A DNA stretch of 38,770 bases from a virus. A program made the position numbers and the translations under genes. The stretch is from IMG/VR virus record IMGVR_UViG_3300009154_000116, positions 1-38,770 of that record; one strand, 5' to 3'. This document shows positions 29,538 through 37,373 of the stretch, in pieces (the first letter of the stretch is position 1; every line of letters begins with the position of its first letter). The notes beneath the pieces were generated by a model that saw only the letters and a program-made list of their open reading frames with translations, was not told the DNA's origin and did not search any database.

Positions 29538-32096
29538 ATGACTCAGATTGCCAGGCTTATCGGCGGCGCGGGCACGGGGAAGACCACCGAGCTTCTCAAG
29601 ATCATCACTGAGGCGGCGGGGGGGGTCGGCGGTGACCCGTCGGCGATTGGCTTCGCCAGCCTCACGAGGGCGGCGAGAGAGGAGATGGTGTCGCGGGCGT
29701 CAGAGGCTTTCCAGTGCCACGCCAGCGCCCTTGAGAAGCATGGCTGGTTCCGAACCGTCCATTCGACTTGCCACAAGATGCTGAAGATCGGCGGAGACGA
29801 GATGCTGGGCAACGACGACAAGGCGTCGAAGTGGATCGCAGACCGGCTGCGGGTGTCTGTGTCGTGGAAGAAGGTCGCCGACAGCGGCTACTCGGCCTGC
29901 GTCGGCGACACCGAGGCGGCTGCCTCCCTGACGCTCTGGGACATCTCCAGAAACCGCATTGAGCCGCTGGCGGCCATCCATGCCGAAAAGTCGAATGCGG
30001 GCCTGGAGGTGCCTCCTATCGCCACCGTGAGGCACTTCGTCAAGAAGTACGAGGAGGCGAAGCGGCTGGACGGGAAGAGGGACTTCGTGGACATCCTCGG
30101 CCGGTACTCTGGCGTTCGGTTCGGGATCGACGGGCCGGAAGAGGTCGAGCCGGAGGGCGACACGCCGCTTGGCGTGCGGGTGTGGGTTTTCGACGAGGCC
30201 CAAGACTCCTCGAGGCTGGTCGATCGGGTGTGCCGGAGGCTGGCGCATGGGCCGGGGGTCAAGTGGACGTATCTCGCCGCAGACCCTTTCCAATGCCAGC
30301 CTGCGGGAACGCCCGTGCTCACGACAGCCGGATACCGTTCGATTGAGTCGCTTGACCCTGCGTCCGATTGGCTGATCGCTTTCAACACCAGAGAAAGCAC
30401 CTTCTACGGGTTTGGGAAAAAGATACCGTTCCAGACGGCGAGCCGAGAAGTGGACTCCGGCGACCTCGTCGAAGTCACTTTTACAGACGGCACAAAGTCG
30501 CTCTGCACGCCGAATCACAAATGGGTAGTTAGGACAGTGAAGAAGGAGGCATACGCGACGTACATCATGCGGAAGGGCGATCGGTGGCGCATCGGAACGG
30601 TTCAGATGTTCGCGAATTCGTCGCCTGCGTCGAAGAACAAGAACGGCGAGTTTCGCGTGAAAATGCGCATGAACCAAGAGGATGCGGACTCTGTGTGGTT
30701 GCTTCGCGTCTTCAATACAGATCGGGAGGCCCGCATGTACGAGCAGATCGTCTCGTTCAAGTACGGCATCCCGCAGGTCACCTTCAGGCCACCTTGTGGC
30801 TGCAAAAACAACCTAGACGCAGAGTTCATCGAAACGGTTTTTTCTTCGCTAGGAGACTTGACCGACAAGGCGACAGCCTGCCTCGCCGATCATCGCCTAG
30901 AGATTCTTTTTCCGTTCTGCTCAAAATCCTGTCGGTCGAAAAACGGGAGCTTTGCGACACGCCTAATTCAGGCTGCGAATCTCCTGCCTGGGATTCACAT
31001 TGTCCCCAAGATGCTGCCCGATCGCCATGCCCGCAGGAGCCGTTGGACGGACTCAATCGGGCCGCGGTCTATCGGCAACCAGTGCGAGTGGGTCGGTATT
31101 CAGTCGGTCAATAGACTACCGAGCGGGGCGTCGATTCGAGTCTATAGCCTCAATGTCGAAAAGCACCACACTTACGTCACGACAAACGGGATCGTGACGG
31201 GGAATTCAATTTTCGGCTTCGGGGGGGCAGACTACAACAACTTCCTCGCATGGGAGGTTGACAAGGAGCGGACGATGCCGCAGTCGTGGCGGTGCCCGCG
31301 GCCGGTCATGGAGCTTGGCGAGAGGTGCCTGAAGCGTATGAATCGGGGTTACTTCGACAGGAAGATCGCCCCGGCCGCCCACGACGGCTGCGTCATCCGC
31401 GAGCAGTCTGTCGAGCGTGCCCTGGGTCAGGTGGACAGCAGCCGAACGACCCTGATTCTGGCGAGGTGCAACTACTCGCTGGCGAAGTTCTCCGAGATCC
31501 TCGAGTCGAGGAAGGTGCCGCACGCCGGCATCAACGAGAAGGACGACACGAAAAGCCTCGTCGCCTACAACGCCTACTGGAAGCTCCAGCACGGCAAGGG
31601 GATCGGCGGGCACGAGTGGAAGGCTGCGATCGAGCTGACGCCCGTGAAGGCGACCGGAGACGCCGTGTTCCTCCGCCGCGGCGAGAAGGCGGCGTGGAGC
31701 CAAGGCCGCCGGGAAAACATCGACTTCATCGGAGCCGACGAGATCATGCAGCTCGGAGGCGCGACGGAGGCGCTGGTGGCGGCGATCTCCAGCGGAGGGT
31801 GGGCCGCCCTCCTCGACCGCGGCAAGAAGTGGTATGACGCCGCCAGGCGTCATGGCCCCGAGACGGCGACGAGGCCGAATGTGAGGCTCTCGACCATCCA
31901 CGGCGCGAAGGGAATGGAGGCCCAAGACGTTATCCTCGCGACCGAGACATCGGCTCGCGTCGAGCTTGAGCGGGAACTCGACCCGCGGTGCCACGACGAA
32001 GAATGCCGGCTTGAGTACGTCGGCGTCACCAGGGCAAAGGAGCGGTTGGTGGTCTGCGATTCCGACGAGCCCCACGCGATGGAGATCCCTCGATGA
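29538..32096 (+). CDS. UvrD/Rep-type superfamily 1 helicase interrupted by an intein
   Basis: The 852-aa precursor has SF1A motifs: Walker A GGAGTGKTTEL (residues 8-18), Walker B 'VWVFDEAQDSS' near 215-225, motif III split as ADPFQ / SIFGFGGAD, motif IV 'RTTLILARCNYSL', motif V 'LSTIHGAKGMEAQDV' and motif VI 'YVGVTRAKERLVV'. An intein of 304 residues sits between Gln252 and Ser557. Removal gives a 548-residue helicase. Function: 3'-5' unwinding in phage replication or recombination. ATG 29538 follows AAGGAAGG. The C terminus overlaps the next gene by 4 bases. Confidence 0.9.
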   Translation: MTQIARLIGGAGTGKTTELLKIITEAAGGVGGDPSAIGFASLTRAAREEMVSRASEAFQCHASALEKHGWFRTVHSTCHKMLKIGGDEMLGNDDKASKWIADRLRVSVSWKKVADSGYSACVGDTEAAASLTLWDISRNRIEPLAAIHAEKSNAGLEVPPIATVRHFVKKYEEAKRLDGKRDFVDILGRYSGVRFGIDGPEEVEPEGDTPLGVRVWVFDEAQDSSRLVDRVCRRLAHGPGVKWTYLAADPFQCQPAGTPVLTTAGYRSIESLDPASDWLIAFNTRESTFYGFGKKIPFQTASREVDSGDLVEVTFTDGTKSLCTPNHKWVVRTVKKEAYATYIMRKGDRWRIGTVQMFANSSPASKNKNGEFRVKMRMNQEDADSVWLLRVFNTDREARMYEQIVSFKYGIPQVTFRPPCGCKNNLDAEFIETVFSSLGDLTDKATACLADHRLEILFPFCSKSCRSKNGSFATRLIQAANLLPGIHIVPKMLPDRHARRSRWTDSIGPRSIGNQCEWVGIQSVNRLPSGASIRVYSLNVEKHHTYVTTNGIVTGNSIFGFGGADYNNFLAWEVDKERTMPQSWRCPRPVMELGERCLKRMNRGYFDRKIAPAAHDGCVIREQSVERALGQVDSSRTTLILARCNYSLAKFSEILESRKVPHAGINEKDDTKSLVAYNAYWKLQHGKGIGGHEWKAAIELTPVKATGDAVFLRRGEKAAWSQGRRENIDFIGADEIMQLGGATEALVAAISSGGWAALLDRGKKWYDAARRHGPETATRPNVRLSTIHGAKGMEAQDVILATETSARVELERELDPRCHDEECRLEYVGVTRAKERLVVCDSDEPHAMEIPR
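30294..31205 (+). mobile_element. In-frame intein in helicase motif III
   Basis: The intein begins at Cys1 (CQPAGTPVLTTAGYRSIESL, block A), has block B 'SLCTPNHKWVVR', block F 'VYSLNVEKHHTYV' and ends 'NGIVTGN' before Ser+1. The penultimate residue is Gly where His is usual. The flanks rejoin as DPFQ-SIFGF, the highly conserved nucleotide-sensing motif of SF1 helicases. The linker of about 175 residues has no LAGLIDADG motif. It contains 'ATYIMRKGDRWRIG' and 'LLRVFNTDREARMYEQ' plus a cysteine cluster. Codons are more AT-rich than in the helicase parts, indicating a separate origin. Confidence 0.9.
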
Positions 32097-32597: not shown

Positions 32598-32783
32598 ATG
32601 GCCCTCTGCCTCACTCGCCGCCCCGGCCAGACTCTCGTTCTGGACCGCCCGAAGATCCGAATCACGATCGACAGCGTGAAGGGGAAGAGCGTGAGGATCG
32701 TCATCGACGCGCCGTCGCACGTCAAGGTTCTGCGAGAGGAGCTTGTCCTGCGGCTTCCCGCCGCCACCGAAGGAGAGAAATGA
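32598..32783 (+). CDS. csrA: CsrA-like translational regulator
   Basis: A 61-aa protein of standard CsrA length, with ALCLTRRPGQTLVLDRPKIR, 'DSVKGKSVRIVIDAPSHVKVLREEL', and a short C-terminal tail. The RNA-binding residues of strand 1 (LTRRPG) and the conserved Arg in 'VLREEL' are present. CsrA dimers bind GGA in mRNA leaders and change translation or stability. A phage copy could alter host carbon or motility programmes, or regulate phage mRNAs. ATG 32598 lies about 10 bases after GGAAAGGA. It is followed closely by a coiled-coil gene. Confidence 0.85.
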   Translation: MALCLTRRPGQTLVLDRPKIRITIDSVKGKSVRIVIDAPSHVKVLREELVLRLPAATEGEK

Positions 32784-33241
32784 TGGCGAAGAAGACTTTG
32801 GTCGCACCGACGAAGCAGAGCGTGGAGGAGTGGATGAAGTGGATGACGAACGTGCTCTCGCCGAGGGTGACGAGCACCGAGCAGGCCGTGTCTGCGTTGC
32901 GTCGCGACCTTAACCAGCTTGGTGCCGTCTCGTCGGCGAAGATCGTCGGGCTCGAAGGGGCCACCTCCGACCTGTTGAAAAAGATCAGCGATGTTGAGGC
33001 GCACGGTTGCGGTATCAGCAAGTTAAACGACTTGAATGACCGCAACCTCCGCAGGCTTGTCGAGTCGTTTGACGAGGGCTCCGAAAGGCGCGACTGCGAG
33101 CTTCGCGGGGAGATCAACCGTCTTCGTGGCGTGACCGACGCCCTCCGCTTGGAGATCAACCGCCTCCACACCGAAATCATCGTGACGCAGGGCCGACTTG
33201 AGCAGGCCAGCCAGCGGCCGTGGTGGCGCAGGATTCTGTGA
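32783..33241 (+). CDS. Hypothetical coiled-coil protein
   Basis: A 152-aa protein. The ATG at 32783 is chosen for its spacing to AAGGAG (32770-32775); another ATG lies 3 bases upstream. It has basic ends and a long heptad-like helix over residues 25-140 (SALRRDLNQL, GEINRLRGVTDALRLEINRLHTEI), ending 'RPWWRRIL', which could touch a membrane. It overlaps the CsrA stop by one base. No enzyme motif. Confidence 0.55.
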   Translation: MAKKTLVAPTKQSVEEWMKWMTNVLSPRVTSTEQAVSALRRDLNQLGAVSSAKIVGLEGATSDLLKKISDVEAHGCGISKLNDLNDRNLRRLVESFDEGSERRDCELRGEINRLRGVTDALRLEINRLHTEIIVTQGRLEQASQRPWWRRIL

Positions 33242-33264
33242 TCGTCTTCCCAGAGGGGTATGAG

Positions 33265-33639
33265 ATGGCTGTTACGCACCGAATGGCGACGTTCGCGACC
33301 GGCACCTCGCCGAGCTACGCCCAGTTTTACGATGCTGGCTTGCGAAGTGAGCAGCTCGCGTGGGCAGAGCTTCGCCAGCGCGGCGACCACCTGCAAGCAA
33401 CCCTCGACGCCGAGCACTCGTGGGAAACCCGCCGCTGGCGGCTCGCGCACGACCTCGCCGTGGCGATGGCTGACCGCTGCCAGGACGGCCTGATGACGCC
33501 GGGTCAGTTTGGCGAGCTGGTTACGGACATCGCGACCGCAGTTGTCGTATCGTGCGGGATGAGAGAGAAGGACGAGGAGGCCGAGCGGCAGCGCGTCGCC
33601 TGCGCGAAGCTCTTCGACGAACTGGAGAAGAAGAAGTGA
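33265..33639 (+). CDS. Hypothetical helical protein
   Basis: A 124-aa protein. The ATG at 33265 (MAVTHRMATFATG) follows AGAGGGG; an upstream GTG at 33220 lies within the previous gene and is less likely. Mostly helical and charged ('AWAELRQRGDHLQATLDAEHSWETRRWRLA', split; 'RCQDGLMTPGQFGELVTDIATAVV'). The stop overlaps the GTG of the first Tat-signal protein. No function recognised. Confidence 0.5.
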   Translation: MAVTHRMATFATGTSPSYAQFYDAGLRSEQLAWAELRQRGDHLQATLDAEHSWETRRWRLAHDLAVAMADRCQDGLMTPGQFGELVTDIATAVVVSCGMREKDEEAERQRVACAKLFDELEKKK

Positions 33640-33917
33640 ACGACTCCCGACGCGGACTGCTTCAGTCGCTCCTCGCCACGCCGGCCCTGGCCGCCGCCGG
33701 CATCAAGAACGTCGAGGGCAAGGAAGTCGCCGTGCCGAAGGCTGGCAGGACGCTGCTCGTCTTCAAGTTCACGGCACCAGCAACGCTTGATGCCCACGAG
33801 CACTTGAGCGGAAAGGTTCGGGCGATGCTCGACGACGCCGGCCTCGTGGACGTTCCCGCCATCCTGCTGCCGCACTGTGTCGATGTTCAGCCAGTTTCTC
33901 TAACGGAATGGGAATGA
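33636..33917 (+). CDS. Small Tat-signal protein 1
   Basis: A 93-aa protein starting at GTG 33636. The N terminus, MNDSRRGLLQSLLATPALAAAG, has the twin-arginine consensus S-R-R-x-(F/L)-L-(K/Q), then a moderate hydrophobic core and an AxA-type site (ALA-AAG). The mature part, about 70 residues, looks like a small beta domain ('RTLLVFKFTAPATLDAHEHLSG', split), reminiscent of short phage beta modules. It is ATGA-coupled to the TatA gene, so cargo and translocase would be made together. Tat export is inferred from the motif. Confidence 0.6.
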   Translation: MNDSRRGLLQSLLATPALAAAGIKNVEGKEVAVPKAGRTLLVFKFTAPATLDAHEHLSGKVRAMLDDAGLVDVPAILLPHCVDVQPVSLTEWE

Positions 33918-34105
33918 CCATGTTCGGACTTGGAACGATTGAGATCGCGATCATCGGTGCCGTCGCTGTGATGCTGTTCGGAGGCCGGCTTCCGAAGGTT
34001 GCTCGCAGCTTCGGCCAGAGCATCGTGGAGTTCAAGCGCGGCTTCCTTGAGGTCGAAGCCGAGTGCAAAGAGATTGAGAAGACGATTGAGGGGAAGGTGG
34101 GGTGA
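33914..34105 (+). CDS. tatA: TatA-family twin-arginine translocase subunit
   Basis: A 63-aa protein with complete TatA architecture: short N-terminal membrane helix (FGLGTIEIAIIGAVAVMLFG), the hinge FGGRLP, then the amphipathic helix KVARSFGQSIVEFKRGF and a charged tail. The FG-x-x-(K/R)LP and FKxG residues conserved in TatA are all present. TatA oligomerises to open the membrane for folded proteins delivered by TatBC. No TatC is present in the window, so it would have to work with host TatC. ATG 33914 overlaps the upstream stop; 33920 is a possible alternative. A gene for a Tat-signal protein lies directly upstream. Confidence 0.9.
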   Translation: MTMFGLGTIEIAIIGAVAVMLFGGRLPKVARSFGQSIVEFKRGFLEVEAECKEIEKTIEGKVG

Positions 34106-34542
34106 TGGCCTTCAACGTCAAGAAGATGGTTGCCGAGGCACAGGCAGCCGCAGAGAAGTGGCTGGCCGAGGAGAGCGTCGAGTCTCGTGTCAGTCGCATT
34201 CTGCACCGTCGGCTCGAGGCGATCTCGGCGCAGCTCCTCGGTTTTCAGCCGCCTGGATGGGGTGGGCAAAAACACTGGGAAATCGACAACTGCAACGGAC
34301 GCACTGCGAACACCGCGGCTGGAAGCTACATCCGCGAGCACGCCGAGTCGGCCGTCAAGCAGGTGCTCGACGAACTCGTCGGCAAGCTGCCGCCGCTGCC
34401 GGCGTCTGCAAAGAAGTCGCTGATCCGGTACTACCACGACCGCGTCGAGTACGAGGTTCGCCAAGAGTTGAAGGAGCTTGCGGTCGAGCGCGCGAAGGAG
34501 CTGGCGAAGCGCATTCTTGATGACGCTGTGGAGCCGCAATGA
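34105..34542 (+). CDS. Hypothetical helical protein next to TatA
   Basis: A 145-aa charged, helical protein. ATG 34105 overlaps the TatA stop and follows GGGGAAGGTGGGG. Features: 'VSRILHRRLEAISAQLLGF', 'WEIDNCNGR', then 'IRYYHDRVEYEVRQELKELAVERAKELAKRIL' (split) at the C terminus. It has no signal peptide, so it should stay in the cytoplasm. Possibly a partner or chaperone for the adjacent export genes, but only position suggests it. Confidence 0.5.
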   Translation: MAFNVKKMVAEAQAAAEKWLAEESVESRVSRILHRRLEAISAQLLGFQPPGWGGQKHWEIDNCNGRTANTAAGSYIREHAESAVKQVLDELVGKLPPLPASAKKSLIRYYHDRVEYEVRQELKELAVERAKELAKRILDDAVEPQ

Positions 34543-34772
34543 ACAACTGGATTCAAGCCACAGAGCAGTCCCCGCCGGTCGGCAAGCTTCTCGTTGTCGG
34601 CCGTCCGATGCCCGATGGCACCGAGGACATCTTCGTTGGATTCATTTCGCCGAGGGTCAGGGTGCCGACTTGGACGCGAGTCTCGCTTGTGGCGAGCGGC
34701 GATGTGCAACCGACGGTCGTCGGTTCGGTCAGAACAACGGACTTCTGGCGGCCCCTTCCGGAGTGGATTTGA
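34539..34772 (+). CDS. DUF551-like small protein
   Basis: A 77-aa protein starting NNWIQATEQSPPVGKLLVVG and ending 'TTDFWRPLPEWI'. This 'WI...e..P..g...lv.......v..WrPLPe' layout matches the DUF551 family of small phage-borne proteins of unknown function. ATGA coupled to the previous gene. Nothing further can be said about its role. Confidence 0.65.
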   Translation: MNNWIQATEQSPPVGKLLVVGRPMPDGTEDIFVGFISPRVRVPTWTRVSLVASGDVQPTVVGSVRTTDFWRPLPEWI

Positions 34773-34774
34773 TT

Positions 34775-35113
34775 ATGAACCGACGAGACTTCTCAGCCGC
34801 GATTTCAGCCCTGCCGGCGTACTTGGGGTGCGGCCGGATTGCGGCATCAGCAGCCGAGCCGCGTGCGAAGCGCATCGTGAATCGGAGGAGCGTGACGATC
34901 CTCAAGGTGCCCGACGACTGCCCGTGCCGGATCTTCGACGCCAACGGCGTCGAGATCATGTACGCGACACATGCGGAGATTGAGACTGGTGTTGTTGAGC
35001 AGCTTGTGTGCGACGACTCGAGCGGAACGCCGGTCTTCGCCCTCGACAACTACCGCGAGATCAAGCGTGTGCGAACGACGTTCCCGGCCCCGCTGACCTA
35101 CATCCGAGGTTGA
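34775..35113 (+). CDS. Small Tat-signal protein 2
   Basis: A 112-aa protein with N terminus MNRRDFSAAISALPAYLGCG, followed by 'RIAASAAEPRAKR'. The RR-D-F motif, hydrophobic core and AxA (ASA-AEP) fit a Tat signal. The Cys in YLGCG could alternatively be a weak lipobox. The mature part includes 'RRSVTILKVPDDCPCRIFD', a segment with a CxC pair, and beta-like strands. Starts 2 bases after the previous stop. Unknown function at the cell surface or periplasm. Confidence 0.6.
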   Translation: MNRRDFSAAISALPAYLGCGRIAASAAEPRAKRIVNRRSVTILKVPDDCPCRIFDANGVEIMYATHAEIETGVVEQLVCDDSSGTPVFALDNYREIKRVRTTFPAPLTYIRG

Positions 35114-35115
35114 GC

Positions 35116-35553
35116 ATGGATCGTCGCGGATTCATCGGTGCTATCTCGGCGTTTGTCGCCGCCACAACTTCAGGCGTGCGGATGCCGTCCGGTGCGGAGG
35201 CCGCATCAGCGGCCTCCGCACTTGCTGCGCCTGTGCCGCCGCCCCAAGCGAAGAAGCCAGCCGCCGACCCGTCCGAAGCCATCGTTCTTCAAGACAACCT
35301 CCTCTCAGAGATTCGCGGATTCAGCGTCATCTCGTATTCCGAGAACATCGGCTACGAGGGGCGGCGGCTTCGGCTCGTGTACGTTTACGACGGCCCGAGC
35401 CTTCTGACAGGAAAGCAGCACGACGAATTGATCTCTTTCTTGAGGCCGGTGCGGGTCACGATAAGCAGCGACCCCATCGTAGTGTCGAGCATGGGAGGGC
35501 TTGCTCACCGACTCGTCCCTGGCCCTCGCACCGTCACCGTGGAGTACGCATGA
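35116..35553 (+). CDS. Small Tat-signal protein 3
   Basis: A 145-aa protein with N terminus MDRRGFIGAISAFVAATTSG. The RRGF motif is followed by a hydrophobic region and an Ala-rich, Pro-rich linker (ASALAAPVPPPQAKKPAA) before a small beta domain of about 80 residues ('FSVISYSENIGYEGRRLRL', 'VRVTISSDPIVVS'). It starts 2 bases after the previous Tat protein and is ATGA-coupled to the RNA ligase gene. Export is inferred. No known domain. Confidence 0.6.
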   Translation: MDRRGFIGAISAFVAATTSGVRMPSGAEAASAASALAAPVPPPQAKKPAADPSEAIVLQDNLLSEIRGFSVISYSENIGYEGRRLRLVYVYDGPSLLTGKQHDELISFLRPVRVTISSDPIVVSSMGGLAHRLVPGPRTVTVEYA

Positions 35554-36188
35554 CCACCGACTTCTTTCCGCACCACCAGCCGTTCCAGAAGATCCCGCGG
35601 CTGATGCGCGAGATTGTCATCACCGAGAAGATCGACGGCACGAACTGCCAGGTGACGATCAACAACGGCCGTATCTTCGCTGGCTCAAAGAACCGTTGGA
35701 TCACGCCCGAGAGCGACAACTACGGCTTCGCGGCGTGGGTGCAGAGGCATCACGACGAGCTGCTGGGGCTCGGCGAGGGCACGCACTACGGTGAGTGGTG
35801 GGGCGGCGGATGCCAGCGCGGCTACGGCCTCAAGAAGGGCGACATGCGCTGGAGCCTCTTCAACGTCGGCCGGTGGTGCCTGCACAACGACTTGCCGAAG
35901 CCCCGCACCGGCCCCGGAGGAGTCCAGGGCTACAATGACAGCGGGCCTGCCATGCAGGAGCCGCTCCCGGCGTGCTGCGGCCTTGTGCCGGTGCTGTACC
36001 GCGGGCCGTTCAGCGAGAACGCCATTGCTTTCAAACTTGGAAGCCTGAAGCTACGCGGCAGCTTTGCCGCCCCCGGCTTTATGCAGCCCGAGGGCATCAT
36101 CGTCTATCACGTTGCCGGCAAGCACTACTACAAGCGAACGCTCAAGCGCGACGAGGAACCGAAGGGGGTGCGCAATGTTGCGTCGTGA
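35550..36188 (+). CDS. RNA ligase (Rnl2-like)
   Basis: A 212-aa nucleotidyltransferase-type ligase. Visible motifs: I, EKIDGTN with the adenylated Lys27; a 'FAGSKNRWIT' segment; IIIa-like HYGEWWG; IV, EGIIVY; and V, YKRT near the C terminus. The order and the short length match phage and bacterial Rnl2/Rnl-family RNA ligases, which seal nicked or cleaved RNA in the cytoplasm with ATP. Phage copies repair tRNAs cut by host defence nucleases. It shares 14 bases with the following Tat protein gene. Confidence 0.85.
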   Translation: MTTDFFPHHQPFQKIPRLMREIVITEKIDGTNCQVTINNGRIFAGSKNRWITPESDNYGFAAWVQRHHDELLGLGEGTHYGEWWGGGCQRGYGLKKGDMRWSLFNVGRWCLHNDLPKPRTGPGGVQGYNDSGPAMQEPLPACCGLVPVLYRGPFSENAIAFKLGSLKLRGSFAAPGFMQPEGIIVYHVAGKHYYKRTLKRDEEPKGVRNVAS

Positions 36189-36852
36189 GTTCCTCCAGTC
36201 GCTCGCCGCCTTTGCCGCGGCGGCGGCAGCCGGCGGCACCGTCGCCAAGGCTGGCTTCACGCCGCCGGCAATTCCAGAGCCGGCCGTGTGGACCCCACCG
36301 CCCCCCGCGATCGGGCCTGGGATTGCGAATCTGACCGTAGTTCGCGGCGATGAGCTTCGCATGGACTTCGACTGCCCTGATGTGTCTTTGCCAAGGCACG
36401 AGGTCGGTTGGTGGGTGGGCAGGCTTAGTGGTCAGGCCGAGCAAATCAAGGGACAGTGGACGGGCTTTCGGCTCCACGCCGCCGCCGAGCAGACGGCGCG
36501 CATGCGGCCCGGCGTCGTGCCTTGGGGCATCGCGATCCAGGGACGAATCGACGGCGCTGCCCCGCAGACTCTTATCACCGGCCTTGCCACCATCCTCCCT
36601 GACGCATTCTGGAAGTCGCAGGAAGAGGTGCTCGGCTGGCTGCCCCGGATGCACGCCCTCGGCGTCGAGCCCCCTCGTCGCGGCTCCGGCGTCGAGCAAG
36701 TCTGGTTCCGCGAGCGGCTGCGGCCAGACGAACGCTCGATTGAGGACGACCGCGTGGCGTCGATCTTGACGCACAGCCGCCCCGTCGGCGCGACGATCAT
36801 CAATCGCGGAGCGGGGTGCGTTATCGACTTTGCCAAGGAGGAGCTTCTGTGA
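36175..36852 (+). CDS. Small Tat-signal protein 4
   Basis: A 225-aa protein, the largest of the four. N terminus MLRREFLQSLAAFAAAAAAG closely fits the Tat consensus RR-x-F-L-(K/Q), with an Ala-rich core and an AKA-G cleavage site. ATG 36175 overlaps the ligase gene; the longer upstream reading is a shadow. The mature part has a Pro-rich linker then a domain with 'VGWWVGRLSGQAEQIKGQW', 'LPDAFWKSQEEVLGWLPRM' and 'RRGSGVEQVWFRERLRPD', of unknown function. Coupled at GTG to the desaturase gene. Confidence 0.65.
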   Translation: MLRREFLQSLAAFAAAAAAGGTVAKAGFTPPAIPEPAVWTPPPPAIGPGIANLTVVRGDELRMDFDCPDVSLPRHEVGWWVGRLSGQAEQIKGQWTGFRLHAAAEQTARMRPGVVPWGIAIQGRIDGAAPQTLITGLATILPDAFWKSQEEVLGWLPRMHALGVEPPRRGSGVEQVWFRERLRPDERSIEDDRVASILTHSRPVGATIINRGAGCVIDFAKEELL

Positions 36853-37373
36853 TTGAGACCCTGCTTGCCGCCTGGCTCGTGGCTGACTTCTTCTCGGGCC
36901 TGTTTCACTGGTGGGAGGATCGCTACGGCGACCCGTCGTGGCCGATCGTCGGCAAGTACATCGTGCAGCCGAACGTCAGGCACCACGAGGAGCAGACGGC
37001 GTTTCTTGCGGGCGACGTGTGGACGCGGAACTGGACGACACTCGTGCCGTGTCTCGTCGCGTCCTGGGTGTGCTTTGCTACCGGCCAACACTTTCTTGCG
37101 ATCGTGTTTTCGTTCCTTGGATTCAGCAACGAGATCCACGCCTGGTCGCACCAGAAGTGCAGCCGGCCGATCCGCGGCCTTCAGATGCTCGGCCTCCTGC
37201 ATTCTCAAGAACAGCACGCCGAGCACCACAAGCAGCCGTTCGACCGGCGCTACTGCGTAATGACTGACTGGACGAATCAGGTGCTCGAGGCGATCGACTT
37301 CTGGGGAATGCTCGAGGACGGCGTCTTCCGCGTGACCGGGATTGAACCGCGAAAGGAGAGGGAGCGGGCATGA
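36849..37373 (+). CDS. carF: CarF/TMEM189-type plasmanylethanolamine (lipid) desaturase
   Basis: A 174-aa membrane protein with a GTG start overlapping the previous stop. The lipid desaturase domain is nearly the whole protein: 'LVADFFSGLFHWWED' (His20), 'RHHEE' (His45/46), two central membrane segments (about residues 63-92), 'NEIHAWSHQ' (His97/101), 'LLHSQEQHAEHH' (His118/123/126/127) and 'YCVMTDWTNQVLE'. These His residues bind the di-iron centre. CarF/PEDS1 makes the vinyl-ether bond of plasmalogens from alkyl-ether lipids. A phage copy would alter host lipids, possibly for singlet-oxygen sensing or membrane properties. It is intact, with no missing catalytic His seen. Confidence 0.9.
   Translation: MIETLLAAWLVADFFSGLFHWWEDRYGDPSWPIVGKYIVQPNVRHHEEQTAFLAGDVWTRNWTTLVPCLVASWVCFATGQHFLAIVFSFLGFSNEIHAWSHQKCSRPIRGLQMLGLLHSQEQHAEHHKQPFDRRYCVMTDWTNQVLEAIDFWGMLEDGVFRVTGIEPRKERERA

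Follow-up and report, generated by a model that had tools for sequence, protein, structure and literature searches.

A phage tatA gene beside candidate twin-arginine cargo genes: a putative Tat export module

The tatA locus and its neighbours

The window analysed here, 38,770 bases long, is a single IMG/VR virus record in the linear class; such records are often fragments. Genes were called with a simple codon-usage caller of our own, not a published program, and are named by sequence reading unless a profile match is cited. Read in this way, the left of the window holds tail-like genes, the minus strand a recombinase-like gene, and the right replication genes followed by an accessory stretch. 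We found no closely related reference phage. The locus of interest comprises the following genes.

32598..32783, plus strand: csrA-like gene, fixed left neighbour of the cargo-tatA cassette (named by sequence reading)
33238..33639, plus strand: gene X, 5' of P1 (133 aa; phmmer 6e-14 to 2e-5)
33636..33917, plus strand: P1, candidate Tat-signal protein of family 1 (93 aa, GTG start; 6-member family)
33914..34105, plus strand: tatA (63 aa; PF02416 8e-10, TIGR01411 6e-11, 8-copy phage alignment, dN/dS)
34105..34542, plus strand: small protein directly 3' of tatA (by reading, a look-alike at the same place in L014)
34775..35113, plus strand: P2, candidate Tat-signal protein (112 aa; from sequence, with signal-less homologues in two relatives)
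35116..35553, plus strand: P3, candidate Tat-signal protein of family 2 (145 aa; 11-member family, TIGR01409 15.2 bits)
36175..36852, plus strand: P4, candidate Tat-signal protein (225 aa; RREF start, PF10518 13.3 bits, below cut-off)

A sequence-only reading of this DNA had recognised a full TatA at 33914-34105, and profile comparison bears it out. The product scores 38.2 bits against Pfam TatA_B_E (cut-off 21) and 41.7 bits against TIGR01411 tatAE, under that model's curated 53.9, and does better with TatA models than with TatB (TIGR01410 tatB, 21.3 bits). It displays Glu10, 12 hydrophobic residues (11-22) ending in Phe22, a Gly23 hinge and an amphipathic helix with FKRG. Essential or strictly conserved features of TatA include a polar residue, a run of about 12 hydrophobic residues with Phe at its end, and next a Gly (PMC9527704), and the phage protein retains these positions. 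Glu10, Phe22, Gly23 and FKRG are invariant in the eight aligned phage copies, among about 35 invariant columns, and dN/dS between phage copies is mostly 0.07-0.38. The phage TatA is under purifying selection and, judged by its sequence, is a bona fide TatA.

Such a protein might instead serve as a small holin-like or depolarising, membrane-thinning protein for lysis or takeover, with the RR genes encoding membrane proteins of separate function. TatA's too-short helix stresses membranes, and TpeE-type holins have the same topology (PMC9527704). Yet all TatC-contact and hinge positions are retained, although a protein that only disrupted membranes could dispense with them, and tatA is tightly linked to the RR genes; we consider this use possible but improbable.

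The four RR-x-(F/L) starts noted earlier near tatA, at 33636, 34775, 35116 and 36175, all exist: MNDSRRGLLQSLL for P1 (MNDSRRGLL, from a GTG), MNRRDFSAAISAL for P2 (MNRRDF), MDRRGFIGAISAF for P3 (MDRRGF) and MLRREFLQSLAAF for P4 (MLRREF). In each, the motif is followed by an uncharged, moderately hydrophobic stretch and an AxA-type site, and by our own reading plausible Shine-Dalgarno-like bases lie 5' of each start. The stop of P1 overlaps the start of tatA (ATGA), so synthesis of the two is likely coupled. Against curated Tat-signal profiles, three of the four proteins match below cut-off (PF10518 at 11.4 and 13.3 bits, cut-off 22.7; P3 against TIGR01409, cut-off 16.7) and P2 gives zero matches; we therefore based our judgement on comparison and not on single-sequence calls.

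Homologues of P2 in L146 and L188 (E 4e-5) do not carry the signal, and P4 has no relatives among the viral contigs or reference phages searched. A query with P1 singly returned its own contig only from the viral collection, and the P1 family alignment is too variable for a scan. The predicted structure of P1 was too weak for a fold search (pLDDT 63); a model of the P3 family (pLDDT 68) found nothing at E<=0.001 in a fold search of PDB and viral structures.

Several neighbouring genes deserve mention in their own right. Gene X also precedes P1 in L087, L088 and L110. The csrA-like gene stands 5' of the cassette across the phage group and is retained in L100, a sister that lacks tatA; a phage-carried csrA may merit separate study. 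Between two cargo genes lies an RNA ligase (35550-36188; PF09414 2.5e-11, PHROG 548 5e-28), and the end of P4 is overlapped by a lipid desaturase domain protein (36849-37373; PF10520 2.6e-43) that is CarF-like at 87.6 bits in NCBIfam, under cut-off; a phage membrane-lipid enzyme would suit an envelope theme. The UvrD-like helicase at 29538-32096 contains what reads as an intein, an insert of about 303 residues (253-555) that runs from CQPAGTPVLTTAGYRS to HHTYVTTNGIVTGN and is followed by SIFGFGG. In close relatives, L006/L007 for example, it is missing, and the length of the L002-L005 proteins suggests its presence there.

Twin-arginine genes accompany tatA across phages

We collected relatives by scanning viral contigs with TatA queries and with the helicase. 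This gave 12 other distinct TatA-bearing contigs: nine relatives of the window phage (L008, L009, L011-L016 and L096; with L010 and L097 as near-copies) and three phages that clearly differ from it, L017/G015, L180/G412 and L190/G413, the first of which encodes a terminase, helicase and ribonucleotide reductase. The set seen in the window, TatA plus Tat-signal genes, recurs among them: all 13 distinct contigs, window included, carry twin-arginine genes, and in 11 one of these adjoins tatA. In G413, MPDRRGFIGACFAGLAGV overlaps the end of tatA and is followed by MSSRRGFIGRCLAGLVGV; in G015, MINRRNFFGSVSVAAVAIG begins 30 bases past tatA. The exceptions are L009, where tatA and the RR gene are about 5 kb apart, and G412, where MVSRRDFLKTTTGLATGLAAG lies on the other strand at 20 kb; one RR gene in the 59 kb of G412 is, alone, not beyond chance under the loose motif used. 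In G412, L192:10542-12101 encodes a protein of 519 residues whose Tat signal (SRRDFLK) is of textbook form and which contains an intein- or Hint-like stretch, GDCFAAGTMVQTSMSVVPIEDIQVGDQVFTG; large, possibly structural genes lie nearby.

Among 50,697 reference phages there was no match to the window TatA, and the hits of a generic TatA query were confined to six records without annotation (five Listeria/Staphylococcus, one faecal), which we suspect hold bacterial DNA. The pairing of TatA with cargo looks to span up to four separate phage lineages. Convincing Tat-signal genes also occur in five relatives that lack TatA (L091, L100, L105, L115 and L141), where TatA is thus dispensable. It therefore looks like an optional booster and not a requirement, an addition that probably helps but can be spared.

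Two cargo families could be aligned. Family 1, to which P1 belongs, has six members in six phages, each directly upstream of tatA, with only M1, R5, R6 and P79 invariant. Family 2, that of P3, has 11 members from phages with and without TatA. RR.F is invariant in this family, and in more than half of its members the hydrophobic stretch is followed by GVR or GVK plus (L/M/I)P. A basic residue of this kind after the hydrophobic stretch disfavours the Sec route. TIGR01409 matches eight of the 11 at E<=1, the best of them at 3e-4. In both families the twin arginine is among few invariant residues and the rest is mostly 20-45% identical; cargo outside the two is unrelated to them.

These families also bear on a reading in which the phage interferes with its host, extra TatA and abundant RR proteins occupying the host TatBC and thereby keeping host Tat substrates from being exported. 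The parts list would be identical, and in a B. subtilis mutant background secretion could be blocked by tatAy or by tatCy alone when carried on a plasmid (PMC3068169). A decoy needs signals only, yet in families 1 and 2 the mature domains, too, remain recognisable as families of folded-looking proteins; interference is possible, and we judge it unlikely.

One cargo protein outside these families, L147:13970-14605, lies just 5' of tatA and joins a Tat-like signal to an HK97 capsid family stretch (PF05065 4.4e-7, above cut-off). A related cargo protein in L163 weakly resembles the capsid protein that L163 itself encodes (27% across 74 residues). Such capsid-like cargo may be a decoy, a means of interference or recombination debris. 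A portal-like assignment of the L163 protein was dropped (PHROGs match 0.026); the Pfam portal match belongs to the L147 cargo and is below cut-off.

The association with tatA was quantified with a loose motif test (RR-x-(F/L), an uncharged hydrophobic stretch and an AxA-type site) that shuffled N-termini pass in 0.05% of trials. Within 6 kb of tatA, 19 of 247 genes pass (7.7%), compared with 6 of 552 (1.1%) further away (Fisher p=3e-6), and three of those six are one family (MSEPKIRRKF) whose signal is not a convincing Tat signal. The rate in contigs without TatA is 1.2%. We also compared 59 loci anchored on the helicase, each extending at least 6 kb to its right. Downstream of the helicase, ORFs with an RR signal are present in 10/10 loci with TatA versus 14/49 without, with p-values (Fisher p=3e-5; Mann-Whitney 1e-6) that are optimistic since near-copies were removed only in part. 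The mean is 2.3 such ORFs per locus with TatA and 0.37 without, the latter near the noise level of the reverse strand of the same stretches (0.27). On the helicase tree, TatA state must have changed six times or more. Among independent pairs, with RR presence curated by us from the relatives' RR-gene list, RR genes follow TatA 5:0, at a median p of 0.06 that is limited by the number of pairs.

A direct exchange is visible between L100 and L110, whose helicases are almost identical and whose DNA is about 94% identical across the helicase and the gene that follows it. From there up to a downstream gene common to both, L110 carries two genes, then csrA, then X-P1-tatA. After csrA, where L110 has X-P1-tatA, L100 has queD- and queE-like genes and others (L100:12331-14591; read from sequence, with no profile). 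Cargo and tatA thus enter and leave this accessory site jointly, behaving as a swappable cassette. The queD/queE-like genes at the same site may form a 7-deazaguanine DNA or tRNA modification cassette.

Origin of the phage TatA and the part of the host

The closest cellular TatAs are mostly from Planctomycetota, at 45-65% identity to phage TatA, and among 392 sampled Planctomycetota genomes no TatA copy scored near the phage ones. In a TatA tree that left out L180 and L190, L017 falls with Phycisphaerae TatA, and a single phage clade is not rejected (p-AU 0.47). Phages have likely captured tatA separately, and the host is probably a Planctomycetota bacterium, as judged from TatA only.

This ancestry invites a reading by coincidence, in which tatA was captured from a host and matters little, and RR starts abound simply through the heavy use of Tat by Planctomycetota hosts. 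Both the apparent Planctomycetota derivation of tatA and the Tat-signal genes of the five relatives without it would fit. The association statistics, adjacency in 11/13 contigs, recurrence in phages that are not closely related and purifying selection on tatA all argue against it, and we hold it to be very unlikely, more so than either the holin-like or the interference reading.

As reported earlier for the window, TatC is absent: PF00902 was found in 0 of 14 phage records, the window contig included. It is present in 52 of 59 Planctomycetota, so TatC must be supplied by the host.

A proposed export module and known systems

From the genes, their order, conservation and co-occurrence we infer an active phage TatA and exported cargo, and our main reading, to which we give a probability of roughly 70%, is that the phage carries, at this locus, a Tat export module in which its TatA and host TatC would export dedicated phage cargo. 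The phage would make its own TatA plus a set of small twin-arginine proteins, with P1 probably coupled to tatA in translation, and the host would provide TatC, and TatB if its system needs one. During infection the extra TatA could raise the capacity of the host translocase or bias it towards phage cargo. Folded phage proteins would then reach or pass the cytoplasmic membrane, where they most likely alter the envelope of the infected cell; an envelope change is our preferred guess for the purpose of the cargo. The sequence-only reading had proposed the same division of labour, with superinfection exclusion, envelope change or lysis timing as conceivable purposes. Related phages with TatA but no Tat-signal genes would have counted against it, and none appeared among the 13 distinct contigs; the invariant twin arginine and the cassette swapping strengthen its pairing of phage TatA with phage cargo. 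A strict dependence of the cargo on phage TatA is unlikely, given the five relatives that carry cargo without it.

TatA can bind substrates independently of TatBC, aiding transport (PMC4361764), and in B. subtilis TatAd can cooperate with TatCy (PMC3068169); by analogy with these two studies a phage TatA might join host TatC for its own cargo. On a broader reading, which we favour with somewhat less confidence, several phage lineages would have assembled a travelling cassette of a phage-adapted TatA and changing Tat-tagged proteins, some of them phage domains joined to a Tat signal (the HK97 capsid-family stretch included), by which folded proteins are exported via host TatC.

If this is true, phages gain a lysis-free export route for folded proteins, and the locus would offer a natural example of a TatA adapted to few substrates, bearing on TatA's part in the choice of cargo. 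It would also point to uncharacterised phage proteins acting beyond the bacterial cytoplasm. In the open-access literature we found neither a phage TatA with cargo nor a phage-supplied part of an export machine with cargo, an absence that is not proof.

Cellular Planctomycetota TatA belongs to the same family as the phage protein and shares its key residues, whereas most of the sampled cellular proteins have a longer C-terminal tail. Holins of the TpeE/BhlA type are likewise small phage-related membrane proteins with one short helix and an amphipathic helix that move proteins across the membrane (PMC9527704), but they are unrelated in sequence to phage TatA and have neither twin-arginine cargo nor TatC. 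In the phoD-tatAd-tatCd locus of B. subtilis a cargo gene stands beside a dedicated tatA, and cargo and translocase genes are induced together (PMC3068169). The likeness lies in a Tat cargo gene directly upstream of a dedicated tatA; the B. subtilis locus, however, is cellular, with its own tatC and a single phosphodiesterase cargo, whereas in the phage unit tatC is missing and the set of cargo, of unassigned function, varies. Since it lacks its own tatC, the phage unit resembles that locus only in part, and we do not file it as one. The parts are of known kinds; their combination in phages, and its recurrence, appear to be new.
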